Source of the DNA: Algoriphagus antarcticus
Lineage (GTDB): Bacteria > Bacteroidota > Bacteroidia > Cytophagales > Cyclobacteriaceae
Assembly: GCF_002150685.1 (NCBI RefSeq)
Contig: NZ_MSSW01000032.1
Coordinates: 1-64,000 of the forward strand
Direction: 5' to 3'
DNA: 64,000 nucleotides
Of this stretch, positions 14,406-20,054 are shown one piece after another. A model generated the notes under the pieces. The model did not search any database. It had not been told where the DNA came from and was given only the letters and a program-made list of their open reading frames with translations. The position numbers were made by a program, and so were the translations under genes. Numbering within the stretch: position 1 is the first letter of the stretch; every line of letters begins with the position of its first letter.

Positions 14406-15704
14406 ATGAAGTATTTCGTAACACTGCTGGCTCAAGATGGGGCCGCCTCAATGGATTTATCTGCAGAAATTGCACAAAATCTCCTCACCACAAACAATGT
14501 TTGGATGATGCTCTCCACCGCCTTGGTGTTTATTATGCACTTGGGCTTTGCTGGAGTAGAAGCAGGATTTGGGCAAGCCAAAAACACTGTTAACATCTTG
14601 TTTAAAAACACAATCACTCCGATCATTGGGATACTATCCTATGCTTTTGTTGGGTTTTATCTCATGTATCCTGGTTTTGAAACTCCGGGATGGTTTGGTT
14701 TTGATGCTTCAGGATGGAGTATGTTTTGGTTTTCACCCGCAGATGCAGATGTTACGGTAGGGTATGCAGATGGAGGTTATACTTATTGGACAGACTTCTT
14801 GTTCCAAGCCATGTTTGCTGCTACTGCTGCTACAATAGTATCTGGAGCCATTGCAGAGCGAGTGAAATTGTGGGCATATCTGGTTTTCACCTTATTTTAT
14901 GTAGGCCTAGTTTATCCGTTAATTGGAAGCTGGAAATGGGGCGGAGGAGCTTTGGATGCAATGGGTTTCTATGACTTTGCAGGAAGTACTTTGGTACACT
15001 CAGTAGGTGGATGGGGAGCTCTAGCGGGTGTAATATTGGTTGGTCCTAGGATCGGTAAATATGTTAACGGAAAGACTGTTGACAAGCCTGGCTCAAGTGT
15101 ACCGCTGGCAGTTATTGGTGTTTTCCTGCTTTGGTTAGGATGGTTTGGCTTCAATGGAGGTTCAGTTCTTTCTGCTGACCCTGCTTTAGTTTCTTTTGTA
15201 TTAGTTACTACTTGTCTAGCTGCATGTGCCGGTGGAATCGGTGGATTTCTTGCAGGGAATATAGTCTTCAAGCGTCTGGATCTTGGGATGATTCTTAATG
15301 GTGTGCTTGCTGGGCTTGTCGGAATCACCGCCGGCGCTGATGTGATCAATCCCGCATCGGCAGTATTGGTAGGCTTTATAGCTGGAATATTAGTAGTGTA
15401 TTCTGCGGTGCTGCTGGATAAGCTTAGACTTGATGACGTAGTCGGTGCGGTTTCCGTTCACCTTACTTGTGGTATTTGGGGCACTTTGGCAGTTGGCATT
15501 TTTTCTACCAATCCTGAACATACTTTCTTAACTCAACTGACAGGAGTAGCAATTTGTGGAGTGGCAGCTTTCTCTGCTGCTTTCCTGATCTTCTTTGTCC
15601 TGAAAAAGACCATTGGAATTCGTGTCTCTGAAGAGCATGAGCGTAATGGACTTGATTCACACGAACACGGGATACGCGGTTACACCATTGTTTACGACGA
15701 ATAG
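14406..15704 (+). CDS. amt: Ammonium transporter
   Basis: A 432-residue Amt/Rh channel of about 11 membrane helices. It shows the twin pore histidines, one in TLVHSVGGWGAL and the other in VHLTCGIWGTLAVG, and the FGFNGGS and GAIAERVK segments. It conducts ammonium or ammonia across the inner membrane. The N terminus begins with a short polar stretch and helix 1 starts at about residue 30. No glnK is adjacent, unlike many bacteria; an outer-membrane porin follows 94 bases downstream and probably supplies ammonium across the outer membrane. Confidence 0.95.
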   Translation: MKYFVTLLAQDGAASMDLSAEIAQNLLTTNNVWMMLSTALVFIMHLGFAGVEAGFGQAKNTVNILFKNTITPIIGILSYAFVGFYLMYPGFETPGWFGFDASGWSMFWFSPADADVTVGYADGGYTYWTDFLFQAMFAATAATIVSGAIAERVKLWAYLVFTLFYVGLVYPLIGSWKWGGGALDAMGFYDFAGSTLVHSVGGWGALAGVILVGPRIGKYVNGKTVDKPGSSVPLAVIGVFLLWLGWFGFNGGSVLSADPALVSFVLVTTCLAACAGGIGGFLAGNIVFKRLDLGMILNGVLAGLVGITAGADVINPASAVLVGFIAGILVVYSAVLLDKLRLDDVVGAVSVHLTCGIWGTLAVGIFSTNPEHTFLTQLTGVAICGVAAFSAAFLIFFVLKKTIGIRVSEEHERNGLDSHEHGIRGYTIVYDE

Positions 15705-15798: not shown

Positions 15799-16980
15799 AT
15801 GAAAAAATTTCAACTACTTATACTAGCATTATTGATTGTTGGTGCAACAAACTCATTTGCCCAAGAGGTCATTATAATTGAAGAAGAAGAGCCTTCTAGA
15901 TTGACATTCTCCGGATCTGTGGATGCTTACTTCCGTACGAACTTCAACGGCGCAAACAAGGGTGAGGGTTTTCAGGCTCCTGCAACATCCTTCGGAAACC
16001 TCCCTGGCTTTTCGTTAGGTATGGCTAATATTATAGCAACCTATCAAGGTGAAAAAGTTGGCGCTGTCGCTGACTTAGTTTTCGGGCCTAGAGGTGAAGA
16101 CGCAGTGTTTGGTTCTCCTTTGTATGCAGGAGGTATGGCGGGAAGTTCTCAGATTGTGAATCAGTTGTATGTTTACTGGAATGTGAATGATGTGGTGACC
16201 TTGACTATGGGTAACTTCAATACATTCTTGGGTTATGAGGTGATTTCTCCTACAGCTAACTTCAACTACTCCACTTCCTATATGTTCTCTTATGGTCCGT
16301 TTTCCCATACAGGTTTGAAGGCTGATTTTGCACTTTCTGATAAGTGGTCATTGATGGCTGCGGTAATGAATCCTACAGATATGACTGAGTTTAATCTGAT
16401 AGGGACATATACTTTAGGGGCTCAGTTGGGTTATACTTACGATGCAGGAGTAGCTTATTTGAACTTCGTCTATGGGGATCAGGATGGCAAGCTTGATATA
16501 GATGGACCTTTGGTAGCAGGTCAATCATCCTTGGGTAGTCTTTTTCAAGTTGATTTGACGGCAGGCATTGATTTATCAGAATCGATCTACTTAGGTCTGA
16601 ACACTACTTATAATACAACTTCCGCAGGTGAGCAATACAATGGGTCAAGCATTGGCGACTTGGATGGCGATGGTGCTGGATTCTATGGTTTTGCTGGATA
16701 TGTGCAAGCTACTACTTCAGAGATGTTTTCTATAGGTCTTCGTGGAGAATACTTCAGCGTATTTAATGGAGGACTTGGCGGAGTAGTAGGTCTTAATTCT
16801 GATGGAGACGGTAGCGTATTTGCAGCGACACTTTCTGGCAATTTAAGAGTTCACAAGAACTTGACACTTATCCCTGAATTGAGAATGGATGCGATGAGTG
16901 ATGATTTCTTTAAGGATAATGATTTAAATGATTCAAAAAACCTTTCTTCGTTTATGCTTGCTGCGGTTTTTGCTTTCTAA
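15799..16980 (+). CDS. Outer-membrane beta-barrel porin (Bbp2/OmpL-like)
   Basis: A 393-residue protein with a signal peptide cleaved near SFAQ (residue 22), an acidic IIIEEEE start to the mature part, and regularly alternating strands ending in a Phe (FMLAAVFAF), the mark of an outer-membrane barrel. The plan fits the putative beta-barrel porin-2 family that often follows amt in Bacteroidota. By context it probably carries ammonium or amines. Aspartate-rich turns such as GDLDGDGAG could bind calcium. Confidence 0.85.
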   Translation: MKKFQLLILALLIVGATNSFAQEVIIIEEEEPSRLTFSGSVDAYFRTNFNGANKGEGFQAPATSFGNLPGFSLGMANIIATYQGEKVGAVADLVFGPRGEDAVFGSPLYAGGMAGSSQIVNQLYVYWNVNDVVTLTMGNFNTFLGYEVISPTANFNYSTSYMFSYGPFSHTGLKADFALSDKWSLMAAVMNPTDMTEFNLIGTYTLGAQLGYTYDAGVAYLNFVYGDQDGKLDIDGPLVAGQSSLGSLFQVDLTAGIDLSESIYLGLNTTYNTTSAGEQYNGSSIGDLDGDGAGFYGFAGYVQATTSEMFSIGLRGEYFSVFNGGLGGVVGLNSDGDGSVFAATLSGNLRVHKNLTLIPELRMDAMSDDFFKDNDLNDSKNLSSFMLAAVFAF

Positions 16981-17008
16981 AAACATAAACAGGGTCTAGT
17001 GTTAATCT

Positions 17009-17045
17009 AAAAGCCGGGATGAATTTCATCCCGGCTTTTATTTTT
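17009..17045 (+). terminator. Terminator of the amt-porin region
   Basis: A 14-bp stem (17009-17022 with 17026-17039) and T run, 28 bases after the porin stop. It is a very strong hairpin. Confidence 0.9.
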
Positions 17046-17274
17046 GACATATTCTAGAGGAAAACCTGGTTACTTTCAGACCTTATTTAGCTGATAATTA
17101 TGTTGAATATTAGATAATAAGTTTATTTTAAAACGATATAAAAAATGTTTATTGAATATTTTAAAAATATAATTTTATCATTTGTCAAAAAGCAGTTATT
17201 AAATATTGATTTTGTGTAACCTTTTTGCTCCACATTAGTATAGTTTAGTAAGAGCAATCTAAATTATACAAGCT

Positions 17275-17562
17275 ATGAAAAGATCGGTATTAGTAATCAC
17301 ACTTATGATGATATCGGCAGCGGGATTTTCACAATCCACCTTGAAAGGGCCGAAAGCCAAAAATGCATCTGCAGCAGAACTTGCAGCAAATGCTTCACCA
17401 TTAAAATTTTACTCAGTTCCTCTAGATGTTAAGGGGCCAGAGGCAAAAAACCTCAGTGTCTGGGAAAGACCTGAAACTAGAACAAAAATAGTTTTCGTTA
17501 GAAGAGATTTGGATTTGCTTAAAGGTCCTAAAGCGAAAAACAAAAAAGTTTGGGAGGATTAA
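17275..17562 (+). CDS. Small secreted protein with three KGPxAKN repeats
   Basis: A 95-residue protein with a signal peptide cut after GFSQ (about residue 20). The mature 75 residues carry KGPKAKN at 24-30, KGPEAKN at 53-59 and KGPKAKN at 83-89, spaced 29 and 30 residues apart; the second and third are followed by LSVWE and KKVWE. I recognise no family. The mature protein is basic and has no cysteine or membrane segment. It stands alone, with a terminator upstream and one downstream. It could be a peptide precursor or a small repeat-binding envelope protein; both are guesses. Confidence 0.8.
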   Translation: MKRSVLVITLMMISAAGFSQSTLKGPKAKNASAAELAANASPLKFYSVPLDVKGPEAKNLSVWERPETRTKIVFVRRDLDLLKGPKAKNKKVWED

Positions 17563-17589: not shown

Positions 17590-17615
17590 AAAAGCCCGGA
17601 ATATTCCGGGCTTTT
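17590..17615. terminator. Bidirectional terminator between convergent genes
   Basis: A perfect 26-base palindrome with a GC-rich centre flanked by A and T runs, between the KGPxAKN gene and the GroES-like gene. It can serve both strands. Confidence 0.9.
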
Positions 17616-17619
17616 GCGT

Positions 17620-17994
17620 TTATAGATCTTGCTCTCTTTCTAACATTAATATTGCGGCTTGAGAAACGATAAAGTATTTTTCACCCTCATAAACAACTTC
17701 ATGTGCTCCTGAAAGTAGGAAGATAGCTAAGTCGCCTTCTTTAGCTTGTAGGGGAACATATTTCACTTTTTCTTCATTATCCATCCATGGTTCGGGATCA
17801 TCCGTAGCTACAGGTATTGGATATCCTGGGCCAGCTTTGATGATGTAGCCTTGCTGTACCTTTTCTTTTTCCTGAACTCCCGGTGGTAAGTATAATCCTG
17901 AACCTGTCTTTCCATTTGGTTTTTTCAAGCGGATTAAAACTCGGTCACCCACCACTATGAGTTTCTTTAGTTTATTGTCAGATGTTAATTGCAT
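17620..17994 (-). CDS. GroES-like (Cpn10 family) protein
   Basis: A 124-residue protein with the Cpn10 fold signature: VVGDRVLIRLKKPNGKTGSG, LYLPPGVQEKEKVQQG and a C-terminal VSQAAILML. It is longer than GroES (about 95) because of an insertion near residues 60-80 (PVATDDPEPWMDNEEKV). No groEL is next to it. It is the divergent GroES-like protein common in Bacteroidota; whether it caps GroEL is not known from the sequence. It lies downstream of dnaK on the same strand, separated by a terminator. Confidence 0.87.
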   Translation of the reverse strand: MQLTSDNKLKKLIVVGDRVLIRLKKPNGKTGSGLYLPPGVQEKEKVQQGYIIKAGPGYPIPVATDDPEPWMDNEEKVKYVPLQAKEGDLAIFLLSGAHEVVYEGEKYFIVSQAAILMLEREQDL

Positions 17995-18128: not shown

Positions 18129-20054
18129 TTATTTTTTCTCTTCTTCGCTTACTTCTTCATAATCGACGTCAGATACTCCATCGCCTGCATCAGATGAACT
18201 AGCACCAGCATTTGGATCAGCTCCAGATGCTCCTGCGCCTTCAGCTCCTGCAGCATTGTACATTTCTGTAGAAGCAGCTTCCCAAGCTTTGTTCAATCCT
18301 TCCATTGCAGAATCAATTCCCTCGATATTTTGAGCTTGATGTGCTGCTTTAAGAGTTTCCAGTGCTCCGGAGATTGTAGTTTTATTTCCTTCGGAAAGCT
18401 TGTCTCCGTATTCTTTCAACTGCTTTTCAGTTTGAAATACTAAGCTATCAGCTTGGTTCAACTTGTCAATTTTCTCTTTCTCAGCTTTATCAGTAACTGC
18501 ATTTGCTTCAGCTTCAGACTTCATTCTGTCAATTTCTTCCTGAGAAAGTCCTGAAGATGCTTCGATCTTGATCTTCTGCTCTTTACCAGTTCCTTTATCT
18601 TTTGCTGATACATTTAATATACCGTTAGCATCGATATCGAAAGTCACTTCGATCTGAGGAACACCTCTTTGTGCTGGTGGAATATCAGAAAGTTGGAATC
18701 TACCAATACTTCTGTTATCCTTAGCCATTGGTCTTTCACCTTGCAATACGTGAATATCCACAGCTGGCTGATTATCCGCAGCAGTCGAGAATGTCTCAGA
18801 CTTCTTGGTAGGGATAGTAGTGTTAGACTCGATCAATTTGGTCAATACTCCACCCATAGTTTCAATACCTAGAGAAAGTGGAGTCACATCCAAAAGAAGA
18901 ACGTCTTTCACTTCACCTGTCAATACTCCACCTTGAATCGCTGCTCCGATAGCAACTACCTCATCTGGGTTTACACCTTTAGAAGGCTTTTTGCCAAAGA
19001 ACTTTTCAACTTCTTCTTGGATTTTAGGGATTCTAGTAGAACCGCCTACCAAGATTACTTCGTCAATATCAGATGGACTCAGACCTGCATCAGCCAAAGC
19101 TTTCTTACAAGGCTCCATAGATCTTCTTACTAGATCTTCGGAAAGTTGTTCGAATTTCGCACGGCTCAAAGTTCTCACCAAGTGCTTAGGACCTGTTTGA
19201 GTTGCAGTGATATATGGCAAGTTGATTTCAGTAGAGGCAGAGCTGGAAAGCTCTATTTTAGCTTTTTCAGATGCTTCTTTCAATCTCTGAAGTGCCATTG
19301 GATCTTGTCTAAGATCTATTTGCTCCTCAGATTTGAACTCTTCAGCTAGCCAGTTCATGATCACCTGATCAAAGTCATCACCACCTAAGTGCACATCACC
19401 ATTGGTTGATTTTACTTCGAATACTCCATCGCCTAGCTCCAATATTGATATATCGAATGTACCACCGCCAAGGTCATATACAGCGATCTTCATGTCCTGA
19501 TGCTTCTTGTCCATTCCGTATGCCAAAGCCGCAGCCGTTGGCTCGTTAATGATACGCTTAACGTCTAGACCAGCGATCTGTCCAGCTTCTTTAGTTGCTT
19601 GACGCTCGGAATCATTGAAGTATGCAGGAACTGTTATAACTGCTTCAGTCACTGTTTGTCCCAAAAAATCCTCAGCAGTGCTCTTCATTTTCTGAAGGAT
19701 CATCGCAGAAAGCTCCTGTGGTGTATAAGAACGGTCACCGATTTTTACAACGACAGTATCGTTAGCCCCTTTTTCAACTTTATATGTAGCATGCTTTTTC
19801 TCCTCAGAAATTTCAGAGAATCTTTTGCCCATAAATCTTTTAACTGAAGAAATGGTGTTGGTTGGGTTAGTAATAGCCTGACGCTTGGCAGGATCACCTA
19901 CTTTGCGCTCACCGTTTCCATTGTCAAGGAAAGCCACAATAGAAGGTGTGGTTCTTCTTCCCTCACTGTTTTGAATGACTACAGGCTCGTTACCTTCCAT
20001 CACTGCTACGCAGGAGTTGGTTGTTCCTAAGTCAATGCCTATGATTTTTCCCAT
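18129..20054 (-). CDS. dnaK: Molecular chaperone DnaK (Hsp70)
   Basis: A 641-residue Hsp70. It has [13 protein letters not shown] at the N terminus, the ATPase motifs [14 protein letters not shown] and [13 protein letters not shown], the linker [15 protein letters not shown], the substrate domain and a helical lid, ending in an acidic EEVSEEEKK tail after a Gly/Ala-rich stretch. It refolds proteins with DnaJ and GrpE, neither of which is beside it. A TGnCA-N3-TGnCA element about 85 bases upstream may be a heat-shock operator. Confidence 0.98.

Follow-up and report, generated by a model that had tools for sequence, protein, structure and literature searches.

A family of small exported three-repeat proteins in Bacteroidota and its apparent control by a dedicated two-component system

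The window (the whole 64,000-nucleotide stretch of Algoriphagus antarcticus DNA that was analysed here) contains a gene whose product, as judged from its sequence and those of its homologues, belongs to an as yet unnamed family of Bacteroidota. Its members are small, basic exported proteins without cysteine that carry three repeats of the LKGPxAKNxKPW type; we call this family, its genes and its proteins KGP. In many lineages, gene order and upstream sequence suggest that a dedicated two-component system acts mainly on the KGP gene. Both the adjacent dCache-like kinase with its NarL-type regulator and the palindrome described below are features of a subset of the family and are absent from the window genome, so the regulatory part of our findings does not apply to the window gene itself. 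To the full account, in which the family, its dedicated two-component control, an ammonium/ion response and multivalent docking in the envelope are all taken jointly, we give about an even chance of being right. An unannotated exported family that is this widespread, and that is tied to a particular sensor, regulator and 16-bp DNA site, has a function that is directly testable, and if its links to glutamine synthetase, amtB and the exchangers hold, it would give an entry into the control of ammonium assimilation in the Bacteroidota.

The first-pass annotation of this DNA described a secreted protein of 75 residues with three KGPxAKN motifs, spaced 29 and 30 residues apart and twice followed by VWE. 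These motifs are present as described in the open reading frame of 288 bases (starts at residues 24, 53 and 83, with VWE two residues after motifs 2 and 3; Table 1). The signal peptide stands as well; the length is probably off by one. Residue Q20 is at least 90% conserved across 74 KGP sequences (the 97 homologues described below, less L083, L085 and any protein at least 75% identical to a retained one), and according to PMC5837995 the signal peptidase I of Bacteroidota mostly exposes an N-terminal Gln (the "Q-rule"), so the mature window protein more likely runs from Q20 and has 76 rather than 75 residues. The three motifs are not due to chance: of 200,000 shuffles of the mature part, nine contained a single KGPxAKN and none contained two or more. 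No direct DNA repeat was found within the gene and the codons differ among the three motif copies, which argues that the motifs are old and have been kept by selection; a recent DNA duplication as their origin was considered and rejected on these grounds and on the low dN of the motif codons at high dS (below). The predicted structure has only short local helices, which lie at the motifs, and no confident global fold (pLDDT 74, pTM 0.36). Such a low-confidence model fits motifs strung along a flexible chain but does not prove such a structure. A PDB sequence search with KGP profiles gave nothing meaningful.

Table 1. Features of the KGP gene and its upstream and downstream surroundings in the window
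Feature	Position	Strand	Remarks
KGP gene (three-repeat exported protein; "KGP" is the label used here)	17275..17562	+	95 aa + stop, ATG start; homologues found
Signal peptide, residues 1-19, predicted cleavage before Q20	17275..17331	+	sequence reading; Q20 conserved
Motif 1, KGPKAKN, residues 24-30	17344..17364	+	
Motif 2, KGPEAKN, residues 53-59, then LSVWE	17431..17451	+	
Motif 3, KGPKAKN, residues 83-89, then KKVWED at the C-terminus	17521..17541	+	
amtB, ammonium transporter	14406..15704	+	Pfam PF00909; upstream neighbour conserved in this clade
BBP2 porin	15799..16980	+	Pfam PF07642; immediate upstream neighbour conserved in this clade
Terminator-like stem after porin gene	17008..17040	+	
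13-bp inverted repeat after KGP gene, likely terminator	17590..17615	+	
Conserved upstream stretch, probable promoter: GTAAC-x-TTTT (17216 onward), AGTATAG (17237-17243)	17216..17244	+	alignment, 10 close relatives

The earlier statement that the protein belongs to no recognised family held up in a profile search with Pfam-A (2025) and NCBIfam 20.0, in which the window protein matched 0 families at E values up to 1. The window protein has the two properties that define the KGP family, namely a signal peptide and three motifs about 28–33 residues apart. A profile search gave 70 named KGP loci, mostly from Algoriphagus; the others include loci from Echinicola, Fulvivirga, Reichenbachiella, Marinoscillum, Wenyingzhuangia, Ochrovirga, Flavicella, Spongiivirga, Lewinella, Saprospiraceae and Carboxylicivirga, and together the loci span several Bacteroidota orders. 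We searched 58 related genomes, of which 36 belong to the window's genus and 22 to other genera of the order. KGP is found at E <1e-9 in 21, all of them in the window's genus and the window's own among them; in the 22 genomes from the other genera the best match reaches only E 0.22. When the 196 genomes of the window's taxonomic family were searched, 54 matched KGP at E 0.01 and 48 at 2e-7 or better.

The consensus of the motif is L-K-G-P-x-A-K-N-x-K-P-W. The first-pass annotation had made conservation of motif and spacing among homologues the test of whether the repeat is functional, and both are conserved. We gathered 97 distinct homologues, each with two or more strict motifs in an open frame of fewer than 320 codons (a collection that, by the first of these requirements, misses one-motif relatives). 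Three motifs are scorable in 87 of these proteins and two in 10, and none has more than three; in the ten two-motif proteins a decayed third motif is visible by eye. The motifs are mostly 28–31 residues apart, with a spacing of 29 in 91 pairs, 30 in 42, 31 in 24 and 28 in 10, and other values rarer. The isoelectric point is above 9 in 96 of the 97 proteins, and the mature part contains Cys in 0 of the 97. Among 10 close relatives the amino acid identity is 0.93 in the motifs and 0.54 and 0.47 in the linkers; over their 45 pairs the mean dN is 0.04 in the motif codons versus 0.41 in the first linker, and the mean dS is 1.41 and 1.29, respectively (usable in 24 and 23 of the 45 pairs). In addition, 15 of 21 aligned members of the genus (L008–L010 and L012–L023) have a C-terminal tail, SKAxYxxPKSMxxxKxWxH, and it is absent from the other six (the window protein, L004–L007 and L011). 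This tail, which in most Algoriphagus KGP proteins has the form SKAxYxxPKSMRxRKxWxH, could be a degenerate fourth repeat.

A histidine kinase, a response regulator and KGP lie on one strand in 14 of the 70 named loci. This number includes L096, in which an exchanger gene lies between regulator and KGP, as well as L091 and L092, which stem from one assembly; it does not include L101, where the regulator alone is found beside KGP at a contig end. The NarL-type regulator that was scanned (that of L079) has REC and GerE domains. All four kinases scanned have an HATPase_c domain, and HisKA_3 is above the cut-off in three of them and below it in L073. A model of the periplasmic sensor region of the kinase (pTM 0.80) has as its best PDB matches McpB models and the dCache ligand-binding domains of chemoreceptors such as PctA, PctB, CtaA and Mlp24 (E values of 2e-6 to 1e-4 for the latter group), with 9–16% identity in the matches listed and low to moderate TM-scores, and on the strength of this model we assign the sensor a predicted dCache-like fold. 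A PDB sequence search with the sensor profile gave nothing.

The kinase sensor is present at E <1e-30 in 39 of the 196 genomes of the window's taxonomic family. KGP and kinase occur together in 30 genomes, KGP alone in 18, the kinase alone in 9 and neither in 139 (Fisher p 3e-15, a value that is not corrected for the relatedness of the genomes); six genomes with weak KGP E values (54 reduced to 48) and, for the kinase, two genomes with E >1e-30 (41 reduced to 39) were dropped from this count. In 26 of the 39 kinase genomes KGP lies 1.65–3.04 kb downstream of the sensor match on the same strand, and in two further genomes, G103 and G235, contig ends truncate the trio: in L232 KGP follows the regulator and a partial kinase, and in L218 it follows a regulator fragment. 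Across the phylum, where the search is a lower bound with at most 12 candidates scored per genome, there are matches in at least 8 of 395 genomes, one of which (G522) has no motif protein; all three convincing matches outside the taxonomic family in the phylum sample have the trio. Within the window's genus the sensor is not matched at E 1e-5 in any of the 36 genomes searched, G000 among them. A partner kinase in the window genome was likewise considered and rejected, the sensor having no match there and the best regulator match being only 41% identical.

The DNA between regulator and KGP contains a 16-bp palindrome, TCCGTA-WWWW-TACGGA. It is present in exact form (TCCGTAWWWWTACGGA) in 17 of 60 genomes tested, and these are 17 of the 33 with the kinase and 0 of the 27 without it (presence of the kinase was taken from sensor matches, as several loci held too little upstream DNA); the reversed pattern, used as a control, has one site in the 60 genomes. 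In all 17 of these genomes a site starts 95–183 bp before the KGP start codon, and the only two exact palindromes elsewhere in them are both before Na+/H+ exchangers. With up to one mismatch allowed, in a scan that took 25 of the 33 kinase genomes, there is a site before KGP in 23 of the 25; 62 sites were found in all, 23 of them before KGP, and 25 of the other 39 were opened. The kinase genome G198 has no palindrome at this level, and in the kinase genome G221, where KGP was undetected, a one-mismatch site lies before an exchanger (L214). Six kinase regions with divergent kinases (33–41% identity, L271–L276) have no palindrome. A scan at two mismatches was uninformative, with matches in 30 of 30 genomes that, among the matches listed, were mostly no more frequent than those of the reversed control.

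That the palindrome is a mere terminator of the regulator gene was rejected as its main reading, on the placement of three sites. In L096 and L258 the palindrome stays before KGP though an exchanger gene intervenes after the regulator, and in Reichenbachiella faecimaris KGP lies away from the kinase (L067/L198) with a one-mismatch site, and the exchanger behind the regulator (L217) has a site of its own. The palindrome in these cases follows the KGP gene and not the regulator gene. Regulation of KGP by the kinase–regulator pair is, as far as such comparisons of sequence and gene order go, well supported. The dCache-like sensor would detect a small molecule, and the NarL-type regulator would most likely bind TCCGTA-WWWW-TACGGA and activate KGP.

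Since the gene of the exported product neighbours a kinase whose sensor is periplasmic and is that kinase's main apparent target, KGP might act back on the kinase, as a feedback protein or a ligand in the periplasm that turns the dCache-like sensor down or up. We regard this as unlikely, because KGP, with strongly conserved motifs, is kept in a large clade that has no such kinase, is undetected in 9 of the 39 kinase genomes, and has its place behind the regulator taken by an exchanger gene in G221 (L214) and G210 (L217). Since KGP has a use in the kinase-less clade, where this sensor is lacking, the role of an effector is favoured over that of a ligand for feedback alone. CpxP and Spy, which have a helical fold with LTxxQ motifs and are induced by a two-component system, resemble KGP in general arrangement: all are small and exported, and all are targets (KGP an apparent one) of a two-component system whose sensor lies in the periplasm; CpxP works with CpxA as a feedback protein. 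Unlike them, KGP has three LKGPxAKNxKPW repeats, no confident fold and no Pfam match, its gene is kept also where the kinase is absent, and the window protein contains no LTxxQ.

In Algoriphagus the KGP gene, which lies behind amtB and the porin gene, would be under some other control. The first-pass annotation took the gene to be a stand-alone unit bracketed by terminators. This is true of the window (the inverted repeat after the gene is not among the entries of a terminator scan of the window) and not of the family, elsewhere in which a kinase and a regulator lie upstream and the gene has an operator-like palindrome of its own. The best match to TCCGTA-WWWW-TACGGA in the 350 bp upstream of the window gene has 6 mismatches. 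A Sigma-54 promoter before the window gene was judged by eye and rejected because its second element is not conserved, and inspection by eye found no convincing promoter element common to amtB and KGP in Algoriphagus.

The neighbours of KGP recur in other arrangements. Relatives of amtB are present in 40 and relatives of the BBP2 porin gene in 41 of the 70 named KGP loci, and the order amtB–BBP2–KGP is found in 11 of the 13 non-Algoriphagus genomes that have KGP without the kinase. Glutamine synthetase adjoins KGP in L090 and in L062, in the latter with AmtB and BBP2 further on, and in Reichenbachiella faecimaris (L199:5345-9240) glutamine synthetase, an ankyrin-repeat glutaminase, Amt and KGP lie in a row on one strand. 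In three of four Reichenbachiella genomes amtB is divergent from the kinase (L253, L255, L260); the palindrome was not found at amtB in the three regions scanned, the best matches having 5, 3 and 6 mismatches. Many KGP genes lie beside unrelated genes, for example those for a phosphonate-binding protein (L067), an aldolase (L068) and a beta-lactamase-fold protein (L192); L080 and L084 are further such cases.

The four Reichenbachiella genomes contain 17 one-mismatch sites versus 2 for the reversed pattern. Four of these sites are at KGP, six at exchangers, three at glutamine synthetase and two at bestrophin genes, and two are at no assigned gene. The glutamine synthetase site lies about 110 bp before the gene, beside a BBP2 porin (three Reichenbachiella genomes), and the bestrophin-family genes with the site upstream are L287:2077-2934 and L289:2189-3046 (two Reichenbachiella genomes). 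There is no such excess in the other 21 kinase genomes, with 26 non-KGP one-mismatch sites versus 38 in the control. Two related genomes (G189 and G235) have a one-mismatch palindrome 100 and 61 bp, respectively, upstream of the genes for exported proteins of 194 and 193 amino acids (L285:2101-2685 and L286:783-1364), which look alike by eye and have no Pfam match. In L297, L298 and L299 (each at 2001) a near-match falls within one and the same conserved coding gene or at its 3' end, so recurrence alone is no proof, and these near-matches are probably the result of coding conservation. By eye, the start of this coding gene resembles phosphosugar mutases.

We consider the link of KGP to nitrogen to be moderately supported. 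With the Reichenbachiella sites and the amtB, BBP2 and glutamine synthetase neighbours in view, it is most likely that KGP would take part in a cell-envelope response concerned with ammonium assimilation and ion balance. As to its molecular action, we infer that KGP would be a flexible protein for multivalent docking, each of its three motifs probably binding the same envelope partner; a multivalent binder, one of the two roles suggested by the first-pass annotation, remains our best guess.

The high isoelectric points and the absence of Cys from the mature part would also suit a general envelope protein that attaches by its basic, Trp-containing motifs to an anionic polymer (lipopolysaccharide, capsule or peptidoglycan); the two-component system would then answer envelope or ionic stress and have nothing to do with nitrogen. 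The exchangers and bestrophin among the predicted targets point the same way. However, the association with amtB, glutamine synthetase and glutaminase recurs in several arrangements, and we think it rather improbable that this explanation is the right one. The other role suggested earlier, a precursor cut into three near-equal signal peptides, has three near-equal exported segments in its favour but is very improbable indeed, as the linkers are poorly conserved next to the motifs, contain by eye no conserved cleavage signal, and come with no recurring protease or export gene seen by eye among the annotated neighbours. Within the reading of KGP as a multivalent docking protein there is a bolder version, to which we give only a slim chance: the trio would be a control system for nitrogen/ion status that has gone unrecognised in Bacteroidota, with KGP as a three-armed periplasmic adaptor that docks onto three-fold envelope proteins (such as the AmtB trimer or the BBP2 porin, both of which we take to have three-fold symmetry) and so tunes ammonium entry.

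In their predicted targets the Reichenbachiella systems resemble NtrBC and other nitrogen-control systems as these are generally described, in that glutamine synthetase is among the targets and amtB adjoins the kinase in three genomes. They differ from NtrBC in having a membrane kinase, a periplasmic dCache-like sensor and a NarL-type regulator, in the lack of the palindrome at amtB in the regions scanned, and in that nitrogen genes are predicted targets here only in Reichenbachiella. The sensor model matches the folds of the dCache amino-acid sensors PctA, PctB, CtaA and Mlp24; unlike those, the dCache-like sensor here belongs to a histidine kinase, and the identity in the matches listed is 9–16%. 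Literature listings and the beginnings of abstracts, mostly from outside the subscription literature, contained no description of the KGP family, of the palindrome or of such a system. Neither of the two family libraries searched has a model for the protein family, and two-component systems with small exported targets are already known as a kind.

Two minor observations concern the loci themselves. Records titled "Rickettsiales bacterium isolate NP5" (L087, L091 and L092) carry KGP genes, and in L091 and L092 two contigs carry the complete kinase–regulator–KGP trio with similar-looking gene arrangements; this isolate is probably mislabelled or misbinned. In the window, a diverged GroES-like protein of 124 amino acids (17620-17994, minus strand; best NCBIfam score 44.8 bits versus a cut-off of 136) is encoded next to dnaK (18129-20054, minus strand), and its relatives are present in 36 of the 70 named KGP loci and lie beside dnaK in the loci shown.
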